This document shows positions 5,902 through 11,414 of a DNA stretch of 30,291 nt, piece after piece. How positions within the stretch are numbered: the stretch's first letter is position 1; the number at the start of each line of letters is the position of its first letter. Below the pieces are notes generated by a model that worked only from the letters and a program-made list of their open reading frames with translations, was not told the DNA's origin and ran no database searches. The stretch lies in the IMG/VR virus record IMGVR_UViG_3300029267_000360, positions 1 to 30,291 of that record; one strand, 5' to 3'. Origin of the DNA: a virus. Made by a program: the position numbers and the translations under genes.

Positions 5902-6287
5902 TTACTAATTACCGTGACCTGATTTTTTTCCTGAGGATGCGGCGGATTATGCTTGACCTGTCGCAGCCAGCCCTTGCTGACATCACTGGAATATCCGTAT
6001 CTTCTCTGAGGAAATACGAGCAGGGTCAACACTCGTTGCACCTGCCTCGTCTTCTTGAATTGTGCGATGCCCTTGACTGCCAGCTTGCGATCATCCCCCT
6101 TGAGTTGCAGACTGACGAGTTCAAGTCTATGGTCAAGGGTACGATTGAGGACGAGATCGACTTTCAACTTATAGCAAAGAACAGGCGCAAGGCTGGTGGA
6201 GCAAGGGATCATTCGTTGATTCCTAAATTGTTTAGGGCTACTGGTCTTGGCCGAGGTACATGGCGACCGAATGGCAAGAAGAAATAA
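5895..6287 (+). CDS. XRE/Cro-CI family HTH regulator with basic C-terminus
   Basis: A 130-residue protein. Residues about 6-65 form an XRE-type HTH: an initial helix (YRDLIFFLRMRRIMLDLS), QPALADITGISVSSLRKYEQ, then HLPRLLELCDALDCQLAIIP. The start is TTG at 5895, overlapping the upstream stop, because later ATGs (5937, 5949) would remove the first helix; a GGAAG lies 7 bases upstream. The C-terminal half is unlike CI cleavage domains: it is basic and ends in NGKKK, so it may bind nucleic acid. Probable repressor or activator of the early region. Confidence 0.82.
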   Translation: MLVTNYRDLIFFLRMRRIMLDLSQPALADITGISVSSLRKYEQGQHSLHLPRLLELCDALDCQLAIIPLELQTDEFKSMVKGTIEDEIDFQLIAKNRRKAGGARDHSLIPKLFRATGLGRGTWRPNGKKK

Positions 6288-6609
6288 GTACGGTGCTAAG
6301 AAGACCGAGGTAGATGGCATCCTGTTTGATTCAAAGGCTGAGTCCAGAAGGTATCTAGTACTCAAAGCCCTTGTCGAACAAGGTGACATCTGGGGTTTGG
6401 AACTTCAGCCTGAATACACATTCCCGATTGATGGACGGGAACTTAGGTATCCATCGAAGCGAGTCGTAAAGTATCGAGCCGACTTCCGATACCAGACACC
6501 AGACGGTGAGGTAGTAGAGGATGTAAAAGGGTTCGATACCATTACTTCAAGAATCAAGCGTAGCCTAGTGGCGCATATTCACAACATCGAGGTAAAGATA
6601 ATCCAATGA
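6271..6609 (+). CDS. DUF1064-type PD-(D/E)XK nuclease-like protein
   Basis: A 112-residue protein that matches the DUF1064 pattern: RRNKYGAKKTEVDGILFDSK then AESRRY, LELQPEYTFPI, KYRADFRY and VVEDVKG. The Glu in SKAE, the Asp in YRADF and the E...K of VEDVKG fit a PD-(D/E)XK metal site, so an endonuclease acting on branched or damaged DNA is likely (family knowledge plus inference). ATG 6271 was chosen over TTG 6247 because it starts at the conserved N-terminus. It overlaps the upstream gene by 17 bases and the next by ATGA. Confidence 0.85.
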   Translation: MARRNKYGAKKTEVDGILFDSKAESRRYLVLKALVEQGDIWGLELQPEYTFPIDGRELRYPSKRVVKYRADFRYQTPDGEVVEDVKGFDTITSRIKRSLVAHIHNIEVKIIQ

Positions 6610-6968
6610 ACTATCCTGATTGGCTAGACACCGAAGCATGGGCTGAGTACAAGCAACATCGCATCGAGATTAAAAAACCCTTAACCCCACTAGCTGAAAG
6701 CAAAATGATTAAGAAGCTAGGTCAGATTGTTAACGAGGTTAACGCAACACAGCAGCAAGTAATCGACCAGTCCATCGAGTACGGTTGGATTGGTTTGTTT
6801 CCACCGAAGGAGTTGACTCATGCACATAAGCAAACTACTAAGCCAGCCTTTAACTCAACCGCAGCAGCATACCGAGAACTCCAAGCCCTTGGGTACACAA
6901 CTGGATTCGAGGAGGAAGCAAGCGGTCAATCACCTGTTCGCCAAAATGTCGTTAATCTTCGGGACTAA
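6606..6968 (+). CDS. Replication protein C-terminal-like domain
   Basis: A 120-residue protein whose first 70 residues (DWLDTEAWAEYKQHRIEIKK, PLTPLAESKM, IDQSIEYGWIGLFPPKE) match the small helical domain usually found at the C-terminus of phage replication-initiation or primosomal (O-like) proteins. Here it stands alone; no origin-binding winged helix is joined to it. The remainder is less ordered. It starts on ATGA with the nuclease gene and shares 149 bases, in another frame, with the next gene. It probably acts with the P-like protein in loading the host helicase. Confidence 0.75.
   Translation: MNYPDWLDTEAWAEYKQHRIEIKKPLTPLAESKMIKKLGQIVNEVNATQQQVIDQSIEYGWIGLFPPKELTHAHKQTTKPAFNSTAAAYRELQALGYTTGFEEEASGQSPVRQNVVNLRD
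6807..6819 (+). promoter_or_regulatory. Start signal of the P-like gene inside its neighbour
   Basis: AAGGAG followed by TTGACTC and ATG at 6820. The same SD-TTGACT-ATG arrangement precedes the genes starting at 4476, 5046, 8280 and 9636, which supports this as the true start even though it lies within another reading frame. Confidence 0.7.
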
Positions 6969-7284
6969 ATGGGCTAACAACTTCCCGACTACCGAAGTAG
7001 AAATGATGGCGAAGCGGGAGTGGTATGATGCACTCGATGGGCTGACCCCTATGCAACTACGCACTGCCGTGGATAAGGTTCGGCAAGAATGTGAATGGCC
7101 GCCTTCGATTGCTGAGTTTTTGAGGTACACAAAAACCGAGAAGCGTGACCCATGCCACCGTATGCTTGAAGCGTTGCCACCCCCAAAGGCTGATCCTGAG
7201 GTAGCAAAGAAAGCCCTTGAGATCATACGATCAGGCCATCTCCCAAGCAGGGAGGAGGCACTAAAAACTTTAGCCTCTACCTAA
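6820..7284 (+). CDS. Lambda P-like helicase loader
   Basis: A 154-residue protein. After a polar N-terminus of about 30 residues it shows FAKMSLIFGTKWANNFPTTE, an alternation REWYDALDGLTPMQLRTAVD and WPPSIAEFLRY, the pattern of phage lambda replication protein P, which delivers the host DnaB helicase to the phage origin. The start 6820 rests on its SD-TTGACT-ATG signal; a start at 6945 would keep the conserved part but has no SD. The C-terminal end reaches to within 80 bases of the convergent ardC gene. Confidence 0.78.
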   Translation: MHISKLLSQPLTQPQQHTENSKPLGTQLDSRRKQAVNHLFAKMSLIFGTKWANNFPTTEVEMMAKREWYDALDGLTPMQLRTAVDKVRQECEWPPSIAEFLRYTKTEKRDPCHRMLEALPPPKADPEVAKKALEIIRSGHLPSREEALKTLAST

Positions 7285-7362
7285 TCGCTTCTAGGTACTT
7301 GCGGCTGGCTTGATCCACCAGCGGGGCGCAACGGATCGCTCTCCTCTAGTTCACTAATCAGG

Positions 7363-8280
7363 TTAAGCAGCAAGGCGAGCGCCGCTTTGCTCGCTTGAAT
7401 CTGATTCTCCAGCCAGCTCGCGACCATCCTGAGTTCCTGTACTCGATCCATGCTGCACCTCCATTACATAGTCAGCCGCGATCTCGGCTAGCTTGGATGC
7501 ACGGACGATGGCTGTGCTGTCATCCTTCAATACCTTAATCCAGCTAGCAATATATTCTGGGTGTTGTAACTCACCGTTAATGCCGAGTCTAGCGCATAGA
7601 AATGCGGACCCTAACTCAGCTACAAGTTCTTCTCGTGCGTAGTCTGGCGATCCGAAGAAGCCATTGAATGGACGGTCAAGGCGTGTCTTGTGGCCTGACC
7701 AGTGGGTGATCTCATGAAGCAGGGTGCTGTAATAGTTCTCAGCATCCTCGAATCGACTGCGGTCAGGCATTCCAATGTAGTCGTCATGCACATTGAAGTA
7801 GGCTCGGTCGCCTCCAGTGCGCAGGTCGATCTTGTGCTTGTGGACTAGGCTCTCGGCCTCGACCAGTGGATTCCATTCGTGCTGTGGCAGGGTCGGCATG
7901 ACAGCCTCGATGCCATCTATCTGGGCGATGTTGAATACGGTATAGCCTCTTGCAAGCAGCGTCTTCTTGATGTTGCCAGTGTCTGGGTCTACCTTCTCCA
8001 TTGGTTTCCAGAACACAACGGTCGTACCCTTCTCGCCCTTGCGTACCTGACCACCACGCTCCTGTGCCTGCTTATATGTACACCACATGGGATGCTCGTA
8101 CTTGTTAATTTCTGCGGCAGCCCAGAGTTGCAGCACATTAACACCACGGTATGCCTTGCCAGTGTGCAGGTTCTTGGGCGTGCCTTCACCGGGTAGCGTA
8201 GCCCACGGCTTGACCCACGGTGCAACACCTGCTTCCAGTTGCTCGATGATGCTATTGGTAATCTGCTTGTAGATACTCAT
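7363..8280 (-). CDS. ardC: ArdC-type antirestriction protein with zinc metallopeptidase domain
   Basis: A 305-residue protein. Residues 1-130 match the ArdC N-terminal single-strand DNA-binding domain (SIYKQITNSIIEQLEAGVAP, WVKPW, AYRGVN, GEKGTTVVFWK). Residues about 150-280 are a zincin domain with the HEITH motif at 189-193 and a following EELVAELGS whose Glu is a likely third zinc ligand. ArdC of conjugative plasmids protects incoming DNA from restriction. ATG 8280 has GGGG-TTGACT before it. Last gene of the small-protein operon, about 25 bases past the preceding stop; the C-terminal 30 residues are Ser/Gly-rich and probably disordered. Confidence 0.92.
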   Translation of the reverse strand: MSIYKQITNSIIEQLEAGVAPWVKPWATLPGEGTPKNLHTGKAYRGVNVLQLWAAAEINKYEHPMWCTYKQAQERGGQVRKGEKGTTVVFWKPMEKVDPDTGNIKKTLLARGYTVFNIAQIDGIEAVMPTLPQHEWNPLVEAESLVHKHKIDLRTGGDRAYFNVHDDYIGMPDRSRFEDAENYYSTLLHEITHWSGHKTRLDRPFNGFFGSPDYAREELVAELGSAFLCARLGINGELQHPEYIASWIKVLKDDSTAIVRASKLAEIAADYVMEVQHGSSTGTQDGRELAGESDSSEQSGARLAA

Positions 8281-9690: not shown

Positions 9691-9839
9691 ACAAGTGTGA
9701 ATTTCCTGCGTTTTCTACGCGGAGTCCAGCCCCTTGGTTTCGTGTAAAAAACCACCGACCAGACCAGCCCCACTAATGACAGGCCAGCGAGCCATGTAGC
9801 GAGCCACAGTGCTACCTCGAATGTTTCTTGTTCGGTCAT
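9678..9839 (-). CDS. 53-residue single-TM membrane protein
   Basis: The frame encodes a short acidic N-terminus (MTEQETFE), a hydrophobic segment at about residues 9-32 (rich in Leu, Ala, Val, Trp) and a strongly basic C-terminus (PRGWTPRRKRRKF). Positive charge after the TM predicts N-out/C-in topology. GGAGG precedes the ATG by 7 bases. Early phage inner-membrane proteins of this type can block superinfection or alter the membrane; no family is recognised. Confidence 0.78.
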   Translation of the reverse strand: MTEQETFEVALWLATWLAGLSLVGLVWSVVFYTKPRGWTPRRKRRKFTLVDKH

Positions 9840-9906
9840 GTTCCTACCTCCAGTTAGCCAAAAAAGGGGTTGAGCAGTTTAGAGTCTTGCTCAGGACTGT
9901 CATGTA

Positions 9907-10323
9907 TTACTCAGGCTTAGCTAGTCTTTCCAACACCGCCTGGGCTTCGAGCGCAGCGGCTGTCTGGGTCTTGTCCAGAGTTGACTCTGGCGTAGCTTGG
10001 TAAGGCTTCCACTCTTCACCGAACAGGTCGGAGTAGGATTCCTTCGCTACGATACCCAGTCGAGTCAACTCGTCCTGCTGGTCGGCAAGGTTGTTAAGGA
10101 ACTGAGTCTTGGCCTGTAGCTGAGCGTCCTCAATCTCGGACCCAGTGAAATGTTCGAGCTTGTTACGAAGTTCGTAACTAATGTCACTGATCTTCTGCTC
10201 GGTGGTCTTGATCCACCGAGATTCAGGACGGGTCATGTAGATCATCAGGCCAATCAGACGCTTCTGGTTGAACTCAGACATTGCATCGACTTCTGCGAAG
10301 ATGTTTTCGATCATGTTTTTCAT
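9907..10323 (-). CDS. First gene of the leftward early operon, unknown function
   Basis: A 138-residue helical, acidic protein starting MKNMIENIFAEVDAMSEFNQ, with a predicted coiled-coil middle (EDAQLQAKTQFLNNLADQQD) and an Ala-rich end (TAAALEAQAVLERLAK). GGAG-TATTTACC precedes the ATG. It contains two symmetric GTTGAC-centred palindromes (9976-9989 and 10061-10072). No known domain is seen. Its position nearest the inferred operon start suggests early, high expression. Confidence 0.8.
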   Translation of the reverse strand: MKNMIENIFAEVDAMSEFNQKRLIGLMIYMTRPESRWIKTTEQKISDISYELRNKLEHFTGSEIEDAQLQAKTQFLNNLADQQDELTRLGIVAKESYSDLFGEEWKPYQATPESTLDKTQTAAALEAQAVLERLAKPE

Positions 10324-10454
10324 GGTAAATACTCCAGATGTTAATGAGAAAAGAGGCTGAGCGAGTGTGTGCCCGCCTCAGGGGGGGAGGAGGAGCGCAC
10401 GATTCACATACCCCTGCAAAGGTCCGCGAACGCGGACGAATAGATAGACCATGC

Positions 10455-10526
10455 GCTGTCAAAGAAAAATCGAGGAAGGCTGCCGCAAGCGAAGCGAAGC
10501 GGAATACCTCTATTTTTATTGACAGC
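10455..10526. repeat. Long inverted repeat with outward TTGACA boxes
   Basis: GCTGTCAA (10455-10462) pairs with TTGACAGC (10519-10526); the arms continue inward through an A5T/AT5 stretch and GAGG/CCTC with one bulge, giving about 20 paired bases per arm. The apex contains CCGC/GCGG around GAAGC direct repeats. Both arm ends read TTGACA outward, but no good -10 lies at normal spacing on either side. Confidence 0.65.
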
Positions 10527-10914
10527 AGGCGTTAGCTGAATCGGGCGCTATGATCGGACCCCCGGCGGCACGCATACCGGAGTTCGAGCGAGTAACGCGA
10601 CTATGCGGGACGCATAGACGCTTACAGGGAGCCAGACTCGTCACCCGATTCACTATGTTCATCCGGTTCTTGAGTCGGCTCCGGGAGCGAGTTGCAGAGC
10701 GGTCGCCATCGAGCGTTCCGACCGAGTGGCGAGGGAGGAAAAGCGGGCAACAATAGTCCGCTGCGCAGAGCGCAGACAGGACACCTACTTGGCTAACACC
10801 GAGACACGGCAGTGCAGGTTTTCCAGAAACACCGTGGCAGAATGAGAAATGTCAGTAACCACTATCAGTATTGGTACTGGCATTACTAGGGAAAACCCTA
10901 TAGCTACTGGGATA

Positions 10915-10943
10915 TTGACAGTGAAATGGAATGGTGCTCTATT
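10915..10943 (+). promoter_or_regulatory. Likely promoter of the late genes
   Basis: TTGACA (10915-10920), 17-base spacer, TCTATT (10938-10943): a perfect -35 and a 4/6 -10. Transcription would begin near 10950, ahead of the small terminase gene. A second candidate, TTGACA at 10983 with TACAGT 18 bases on, would start at or just after the proposed ATG. Confidence 0.55.
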
Positions 10944-11000
10944 TAACTTAATCGTAACTGGTAAGAAACACCCGGAACAGGGTTGACACGAATTACTGGT

Positions 11001-11414
11001 ATGTCATACAGTCTGTTCATGGATGTCGATAACGATAAACAGATGGTCACTACACAGTCCGGGCGAGTGCAGCCACTCACGGATCAGCAGGCCGAACTGG
11101 TGAGCCTGATGACGAGCACTTCATGGAGCAAAGCACAGATCGCTGAGCAAATGGGTGTAAGTCCCGACTGGATCTACCAAACAGTACGAAAACCCCATAT
11201 CAAAGAAGCGATCAGTGCCGCTATATCAGATGGATTGATAAGTGGTGCTGCAAGAGCCTTAGGACGCATCACTGAACTTGTCGAGCACAAATCAGGGTAC
11301 GTAGCTTTAGAGGCGAGTAAGGATTTACTTGATCGGGCTGGCTTTAAACCAGTGGATCGTGCACAGGTAGCGGTTGCTGGTGATGTCAAGATTCAGATCG
11401 ACCTAGGGGGTTAA
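11001..11414 (+). CDS. terS: Probable terminase small subunit
   Basis: A 137-residue protein with a homeodomain-like HTH (LTDQQAELVSLMTSTSWSKA, QIAEQMGVSPDWIYQTVRKP) and, further on, EASKDLLDRAGFKP, which is typical of phage small terminase subunits that recognise the packaging site and recruit the large subunit. It is the first gene of the late operon, upstream of terL. The start is uncertain: TTG 10983, ATG 11001 and ATG 11019 are in frame and none has a strong SD; I chose 11001. TACTGG repeats in the upstream 130 bases could be its binding site. Confidence 0.68.
   Translation: MSYSLFMDVDNDKQMVTTQSGRVQPLTDQQAELVSLMTSTSWSKAQIAEQMGVSPDWIYQTVRKPHIKEAISAAISDGLISGAARALGRITELVEHKSGYVALEASKDLLDRAGFKPVDRAQVAVAGDVKIQIDLGG

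Follow-up and report, generated by a model that had tools for sequence, protein, structure and literature searches.

Gene neighbourhood of the structured region

The window analysed here corresponds to an entire IMG/VR virus record (30,291 bases). The phage is a small podophage with a head-tail connector, a capsid gene, the large terminase, an SSB, a YqaJ exonuclease and an ArdC antirestriction protein, and it also encodes lambda O-like and P-like replication proteins, the genes of which are located at 6.6–7.3 kb. No tRNA or tmRNA was found in the window. About 700 bases without a gene separate a leftward ORF from the rightward gene of the small terminase subunit (Table 1). A structured element lies between this ORF on one side and the late promoter and small terminase gene on the other, confirming the divergent early and late operons of the original prediction. 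Positions 10324–10800 hold only mechanical ORFs of 62–68 aa and, as expected, no plausible gene. The putative late promoter is part of a conserved block, GGATATTGACAG, that recurs in the related phage sequences L003, L006, L014, L076, L007, L010 and L012.

The leftward ORF belongs to a family of proteins of about 130 aa, for which the label GSEI, after a conserved motif, is used here. Homologues were found in L076, L006, L014, L007, L010, L011/L012, L020/L021, L024, L058 and the isolated Pelagibacter phage EXVC031P Hodr, and also in 16 of the 39 related virus records searched. The family was absent from the bacterial genomes searched, and the protein matched no Pfam or PHROG family. Its AlphaFold model (pLDDT 83.5) contains helices only; a fold search gave two significant matches, both to uncharacterised viral proteins, and no convincing match in the PDB. 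Both strands of the GSEI gene itself fold moderately better than synonymous-codon shuffles (z of -3.0 and -2.2). Since its pairs are poorly kept in L076, no claim is made on a fold inside the gene.

Table 1. Features at the early/late junction of the window.
Feature	Position	Strand	Evidence
H-type pseudoknot motif of 27 nt, directly 3' of the GSEI gene, separate from the rod	9872–9898	-	Motif search and covariation
GSEI-family gene (138 aa, all-helical), divergent early gene; start abuts the structured region	9907–10323	-	ORF and homologues
Shine-Dalgarno-like CTGGAG of the GSEI gene	10332–10337	-	Sequence
Rod helices P1–P3 (10367–10377/10564–10573, 10381–10385/10559–10563, 10394–10406/10537–10549)	10367–10573		MFE
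Hairpin P4, first arm of the Y-shaped tip, GTCCGC-GAAC-GCGGAC	10422–10437		Fold and L076
Long hairpin P5, second arm of the tip, TGTCAA/TTGACA in stem	10455–10526		Inverted repeat I3
Hairpin P7	10592–10625		Fold and L076
Hairpin P8, conserved loop GTCACCCGATTC...TTCATCCGGTTCTT	10628–10682		Fold and L076
Hairpin P9	10703–10732		Fold and L076, L003
Hairpin P10	10756–10782		Fold and L076
Putative late promoter TTGACA-17-TCTATT	10915–10943	+	Block recurrence; -10 box poor in the window
Second promoter-like site TTGACA-18-TACAGT	10983–11012	+	Sequence
Small terminase subunit gene, first late gene	11019–11414	+	PHROG 2538, E 2.2e-15

Composition and fold of the region

The GC content was 0.574 over 10324–10800 and 0.594 over 10360–10780. 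The GC maximum of the record is located here, the best of all 421-nt segments starting at 10361 (mean 0.486, sd 0.030). The sharp change of base composition described originally proved to be a rise in GC of about 0.07–0.09; beyond 10800, the GC content falls to 0.437. The G7 run was confirmed at 10381–10387 and is the sole run of at least six G or C in the window.

The hairpin cluster of the original prediction was confirmed as a structured region. Short perfect hairpins by themselves were unexceptional: four 6-bp hairpin starts were observed and 2.1 were expected from the length, and the hairpin count alone is unconvincing because this is only twice the expectation. The long-range fold was exceptional. 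For 10360–10800, z-scores of -4.1 on the plus strand and -3.8 on the minus strand were obtained, with none of 100 dinucleotide shuffles as good; for 10324–10983, they were -4.5 (plus) and -3.2 (minus), again with no shuffle as good. A piece of the terminase gene, used as a coding control, scored -0.55. Overall, the fold z is about -4 on both strands, and the claim that the region is too structured to be only a promoter is supported. That an ordinary divergent promoter region forms hairpins by chance from its high GC is hardly credible: divergent operons are indeed separated by the region and its perfect short hairpins are only twice as frequent as expected, but the z-scores against dinucleotide shuffles and the covariation described below speak against it.

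In the best fold (MFE), the rod P1–P3 opens into the two hairpins P4 and P5, and the hairpins P7, P8, P9 and P10 follow. The G7 run pairs within the helix 10381–10385/10559–10563. The element would accordingly be described as a rod with a branched (Y) tip, after which three or four further hairpins come in the window.

Known families and patterns were searched for in parallel. None of 4227 Rfam families, including GOLLD, ROOL, OLE, 6S and riboswitches, gave a gathering-score match in the window or in 20 loci of relatives, and at a relaxed threshold a single weak match (E 9.3) was obtained over 9800–11100. Between 9600 and 11200, one weak site resembling an intrinsic terminator (GC-rich hairpin and T run) was found, with 1.4 expected by chance, which does not qualify as a terminator. 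BLASTN against phage records returned a chance match only. The matches to the exact pattern GGTCCGCGAACGCGGAC included no recognised relatives, and the CTATTTTTATTGACAGC pattern was found, among recognised relatives, only in the contig of L076 itself.

Covariation between the window and its relatives

L076 aligns with the window over the region, with 79% DNA identity in the left part and 71% in the right part, and L003 covers the right part. Compensatory pair changes, as expected of a structured RNA in its relatives, were found between the window and L076. The helices P1–P3 are kept in L076, with a G-C to A-U change at one pair and a U.G to C-G change at another. P4 reads GTCAGCC-GGA-GGCTGAC in L076, a two-sided change, while the stem of P5 is identical and its tip rebuilt. 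In P7, the window pairs GTAA/TTAC and GCG/CGC correspond to GCAA/TTGC and GCA/TGC. Three two-sided changes and one G.U account for the rebuilt P8 stem of L076. In P9, C-G became U-A in L076 and two end pairs are broken, and L003 shows two one-sided G.U changes. P10 carries a two-sided change from G-C to A-U in L076.

With the arms placed by hand, 86 pairs were compared between the window and L076: 71 were unchanged, nine showed two-sided and three one-sided changes that keep the pair, and three were non-pairs, one of which is a G.A common to both sequences. When the sequences were aligned blind with MAFFT, P7 and part of P8 were misplaced. Pairing was nevertheless seen in 95.7% of cells, compared with 33–41% for slid partners; five pairs showed a two-sided change, and 7 of 500 shuffles reached the covariation score. 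The covariation in the window rests on one full relative (L076) and one partial relative (L003), and it is good but not final, as the comparison has only three sequences, which also served in part to draw the structure. Positions 10324–10800 are a conserved structure, and L076 keeps the branched rod. Compensatory changes in an alignment of homologues, the mark of a conserved structured RNA, were found both for the window element and for the related rods described below.

Structured regions beside the GSEI gene in related phages

Next to the GSEI gene, a structured region was found in at least 20 related phages, one of which is the isolate Hodr. When eight relatives were folded at the equivalent place, seven (L076, L006, L014, L007, L010, L012 and L024) showed z-scores of -3.3 or below on both strands, down to -7.5. 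The whole intergenic region of the eighth, L020, was not clearly more stable than shuffles. Further family members likewise fold into long rods. In most of these phages, the sequence upstream of the GSEI gene has diverged beyond alignment; between the window and L006, it is unalignable although the large terminases are 97% identical. Since absence or lack of structure in close relatives would speak against the original prediction, L006 was checked: its sequence differs, yet it is structured (z -6.4). The element holds the same position across the lineage, so that the suggested foreign origin is unsupported.

Pairing was also compared between related rods. The RNAalifold fold of L010 and L058 contained 12 two-sided changes. 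In four close pairs of relatives, two-sided changes that keep pairing outnumbered those that break it by 29 to 6, and bulge positions of close pairs agreed in 8 of 8, 10 of 10 and 23 of 25 cases.

The rod tips showed features of their own. TGTCAA/TTGACA-like hexamers occur by the tip in L006, L010, L012, L020, L119, L120, L122, L124 and the window (10455–10526), often on both sides and facing outward. A fair rightward promoter is present at the tip in L010, L012 and L007 (TTGATA or TTGACG, 16 nt, TATACT, TATAGT or TATGGT). A cloverleaf-like tip with two hairpins, TGCAAGGC...GCCTTGCA, is common to two phage groups (rod tips of L113, L114, L115 and L117, alignment A5), and the L115 version was rebuilt as TGCAAATC...GATTTGCA.

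An inverted copy of the GSEI gene forms the right arm in most relatives

Most relatives have, as the right arm of the rod, an inverted copy that takes in the GSEI leader and ribosome-binding site as well as the start codon and coding sequence. Its extent ranges from the first few codons in some relatives to essentially the whole gene in Hodr, L115, L119 and L121, in which self-pairing of the gene with its inverted copy scored 261–493, compared with at most 48 for shuffles. In several relatives, the site equivalent to the Shine-Dalgarno sequence lies within the rod and is mirrored in the other arm. The copy is non-coding, with frameshifting indels throughout. In the Hodr rod, 53 indel events and 87% identity of aligned positions were counted, and in several rods indel events rival or approach substitutions in number; these indel counts are approximate because the gap penalties used favour gaps to some degree. 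Perfect runs were at most 16 bp long in nine of ten rods and 23 bp in the tenth. In Hodr (L101:2141-3137), the copy crosses the late promoter (TTGACA-17-TATACT) into the first ~200 bases of the small terminase gene, and as a result two coding regions appear partly complementary to each other.

The inverted gene copy was not found in the window (score of 32, shuffle maximum of 36). The window and L076, both without it, keep the leader rod with the branched tip and add the hairpins P7–P10.

Three explanations for the similarity of the arms were considered. Gene conversion as its sole cause is considered less likely: it could make the arms similar, but it should erase bulges, yet close relatives share them. 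It is very unlikely that the rods are functionless remnants that arose by repeated inverted duplication of the GSEI gene and are now decaying. The right arm is plainly a frameshifted gene copy in many phages, and in L117 most of the copy still present in L115 is gone. However, a decaying duplicate would not show such sharing of bulges and such compensatory changes; neutral decay gives mainly substitutions, whereas many indels were seen, and nearly every relative that carries GSEI has a structured region. Selection on a folded single strand appears to fit best, because close relatives share bulges as well as compensatory changes.

Strand preference and transcription of the element

The strand that would act as RNA was addressed through the mismatches of the rods. 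On the plus strand, which is antisense to the GSEI gene, 233 G.U and 98 A.C were counted. Taken as proof of a plus-strand RNA, this ratio had to be withdrawn, since G+T exceeds A+C on the plus strand at four-fold sites of rightward (late) and leftward (early) genes alike, with a ratio of about 1.4. Such an excess can result from a replication-type strand bias and mimic selection for G.U pairs. From the base composition of each phage, G.U:A.C ratios of about 1 to 3.7 are predicted. Only L115 (35:4) and L117 (14:0), which are related to each other and for which about 1.7:1 is expected, were clearly beyond composition, and no excess was present in Hodr (8:8) or L112 (6:7). The G.U excess favours the plus strand, but a large share of it is attributable to mutational strand bias. 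In some rods, pairing is nearly as good on one strand as on the other, and a promoter scan of either strand revealed no consistent promoter for a transcript spanning the element. In the fold of the window on the mRNA strand, the last bases before the GSEI start codon are left unpaired.

These observations bear on the possibility that the element is a free-standing non-coding RNA of the plus strand acting in trans, e.g., as a decoy or scaffold, with control of GSEI a side effect of the overlap. This is conceivable, if rather doubtful. Besides the overall G.U excess and its extremes in L115 and L117, it is favoured by the better z-score of the plus-strand fold of 10324–10983 and by a possible terminator (stem and T6), read by eye, that ends the element on this strand in L076. 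However, the terminator-like run of L076 is missing in the window, no promoter was seen at the left end, and the lack of excess in several relatives and the mutational share of the G.U excess count against it.

Replication and packaging

The region had also been suggested to be a replication origin or a packaging site. The former was weakened, as the lambda O-like and P-like genes are located 3.5 kb away and the cumulative GC-skew minimum near 10 kb coincides with the switch of the coding strand, while four-fold sites show no turn there. The O-like gene (6606–6968) lies away from the element, and no clear iterons were found in 6250–7400. The record has no end repeats.

A function as DNA or transient single-stranded DNA, be it a pac/cos packaging site, an origin or a regulatory palindrome, is considered unlikely. 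It would agree with the position about 240 nt upstream of the small terminase gene, with the outward-facing TTGACA-like hexamers that flank the tip in several relatives, and with the ability of single-stranded DNA to form G.T pairs and hairpins too. Arguing the other way, replication genes of the lambda O and P type are encoded elsewhere, bulges held in place amid compensatory pairs are unexpected for a protein-binding DNA palindrome, and the sequence lacks the conservation to be expected of a binding site. Among the suggestions of the original prediction, a structured RNA is best supported, through the covariation with L076 and the structured region of the 20 or more relatives, while the origin and the foreign source are without support.

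A widespread pseudoknot motif 3' of the GSEI gene

A block of 28 bases just downstream of the GSEI gene is conserved in relatives with diverged flanks, which led to a pseudoknot motif with the consensus AGUCCU-NNN-CAAGACU-NN-AAACUG-N'N'N'. The pattern AGTCCT-NNN-CAAGACT-NN-AAACTG was searched for in the phage and contig collections. Besides the window, it was present at 59 distinct sites (in L105, L104, L091 and L128–L190), i.e., 60 in total, whereas by our estimate a collection of this size should contain about 0.1. At 54 of the 59 sites, the three variable bases can pair with the triplet that immediately follows the motif. When the sites were scored as an H-type pseudoknot, pairing held in 98.5% of cells and two-sided changes numbered 31, a value reached by 0 of 500 shuffles.

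The motif occurred in no ORF of at least 150 codons. A stop codon precedes it within 40 nt at 43 of the 59 sites, most often by 4–10 nt, and a T run of at least five follows at 20 sites. Near matches were found in Lactobacillus prophage Lj771 and phage D6E, immediately ahead of the scaffold gene, and also in a Synechococcus phage and crAss-like phages. The motif matched no Rfam family. The pseudoknot may be an mRNA 3'-end or intergenic control element. A literature search, which was thin on subscription journals, returned no description of the structured element or of the pseudoknot motif.

Comparison with known RNAs and proposed role

GOLLD and ROOL occur in phages. Like OLE, they are large ornate RNAs of hundreds of nucleotides with an elaborate fold (PMC12286853). 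The element is also hundreds of nucleotides long and elaborately folded, but it has no Rfam match, forms a Y-tipped rod, is not conserved in sequence and is bound to one neighbouring gene. The STAXI motif (RF01728) consists of pseudoknots near SSB and antirestriction genes (PMC2864571). The window likewise has SSB and antirestriction genes and a nearby pseudoknot motif; however, there was no Rfam hit in the window, and the pseudoknot is present in a single copy, has its own consensus and is a neighbour of the element rather than part of it.

Hairpins in 5' leaders can bury the ribosome-binding site, as in the early transcripts of T4 gene e. In many of the relatives, too, upstream sequence would pair with the region around a gene start, but here the partner is a copy of the leader in inverted orientation that can extend to the whole gene, with about 100–500 nt per arm. 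HDV-like RNAs have a rod-like fold with protein-coding sequence on one side, its non-coding complement on the other and frequent bulges. Obelisk RNAs are also rod-like, with a protein-coding side opposite a non-coding complement (PMC13096302). The comparison with both covers fold architecture (a rod, a coding side against a non-coding complement, frequent bulges). In contrast to these RNAs, the element is carried in the DNA genome of a tailed phage with no sign of RNA replication, and no Rfam ribozyme family matched in the 20 loci of relatives.

With somewhat less than an even chance, the element is proposed to be a large structured RNA at the early/late junction of a family of small podophages, with control in cis of the GSEI gene as its main role. 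It would act as RNA, controlling leftward GSEI relative to the late genes read rightward. A transcript reading across both arms would bury the GSEI start in the fold, while transcripts starting near the tip would expose it. In many relatives, the ribosome-binding site and start codon of GSEI lie, together with coding sequence, inside the rod and opposite the inverted non-coding copy. For the window, control in cis would be carried over from these relatives, since neither the window nor L076 has the gene-copy part.

More speculatively, and probably against the odds, the relatives' rods might represent a novel type of phage RNA, namely a self-complementary, rod-shaped transcript with a conserved gene (or its complement) on one side and an inverted non-coding mirror on the other, in which pairing is selected and the sequence turns over completely between phages. 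It is an equally tentative suggestion that an architecture of gene side and non-coding mirror, otherwise known from HDV-like RNAs, occurs here in dsDNA phages.

The conservation of structure is visible where sequence alignment fails, which matters for structured-RNA searches, and the neighbouring pseudoknot is a compact, widespread phage RNA motif without an Rfam family. If the anatomy of the relatives means what it appears to mean, a gene is kept double-stranded against its own non-coding mirror, with the pairing renewed as both sides drift. If true, this would be an unusual way of gene control, testable in the isolated phage Hodr.
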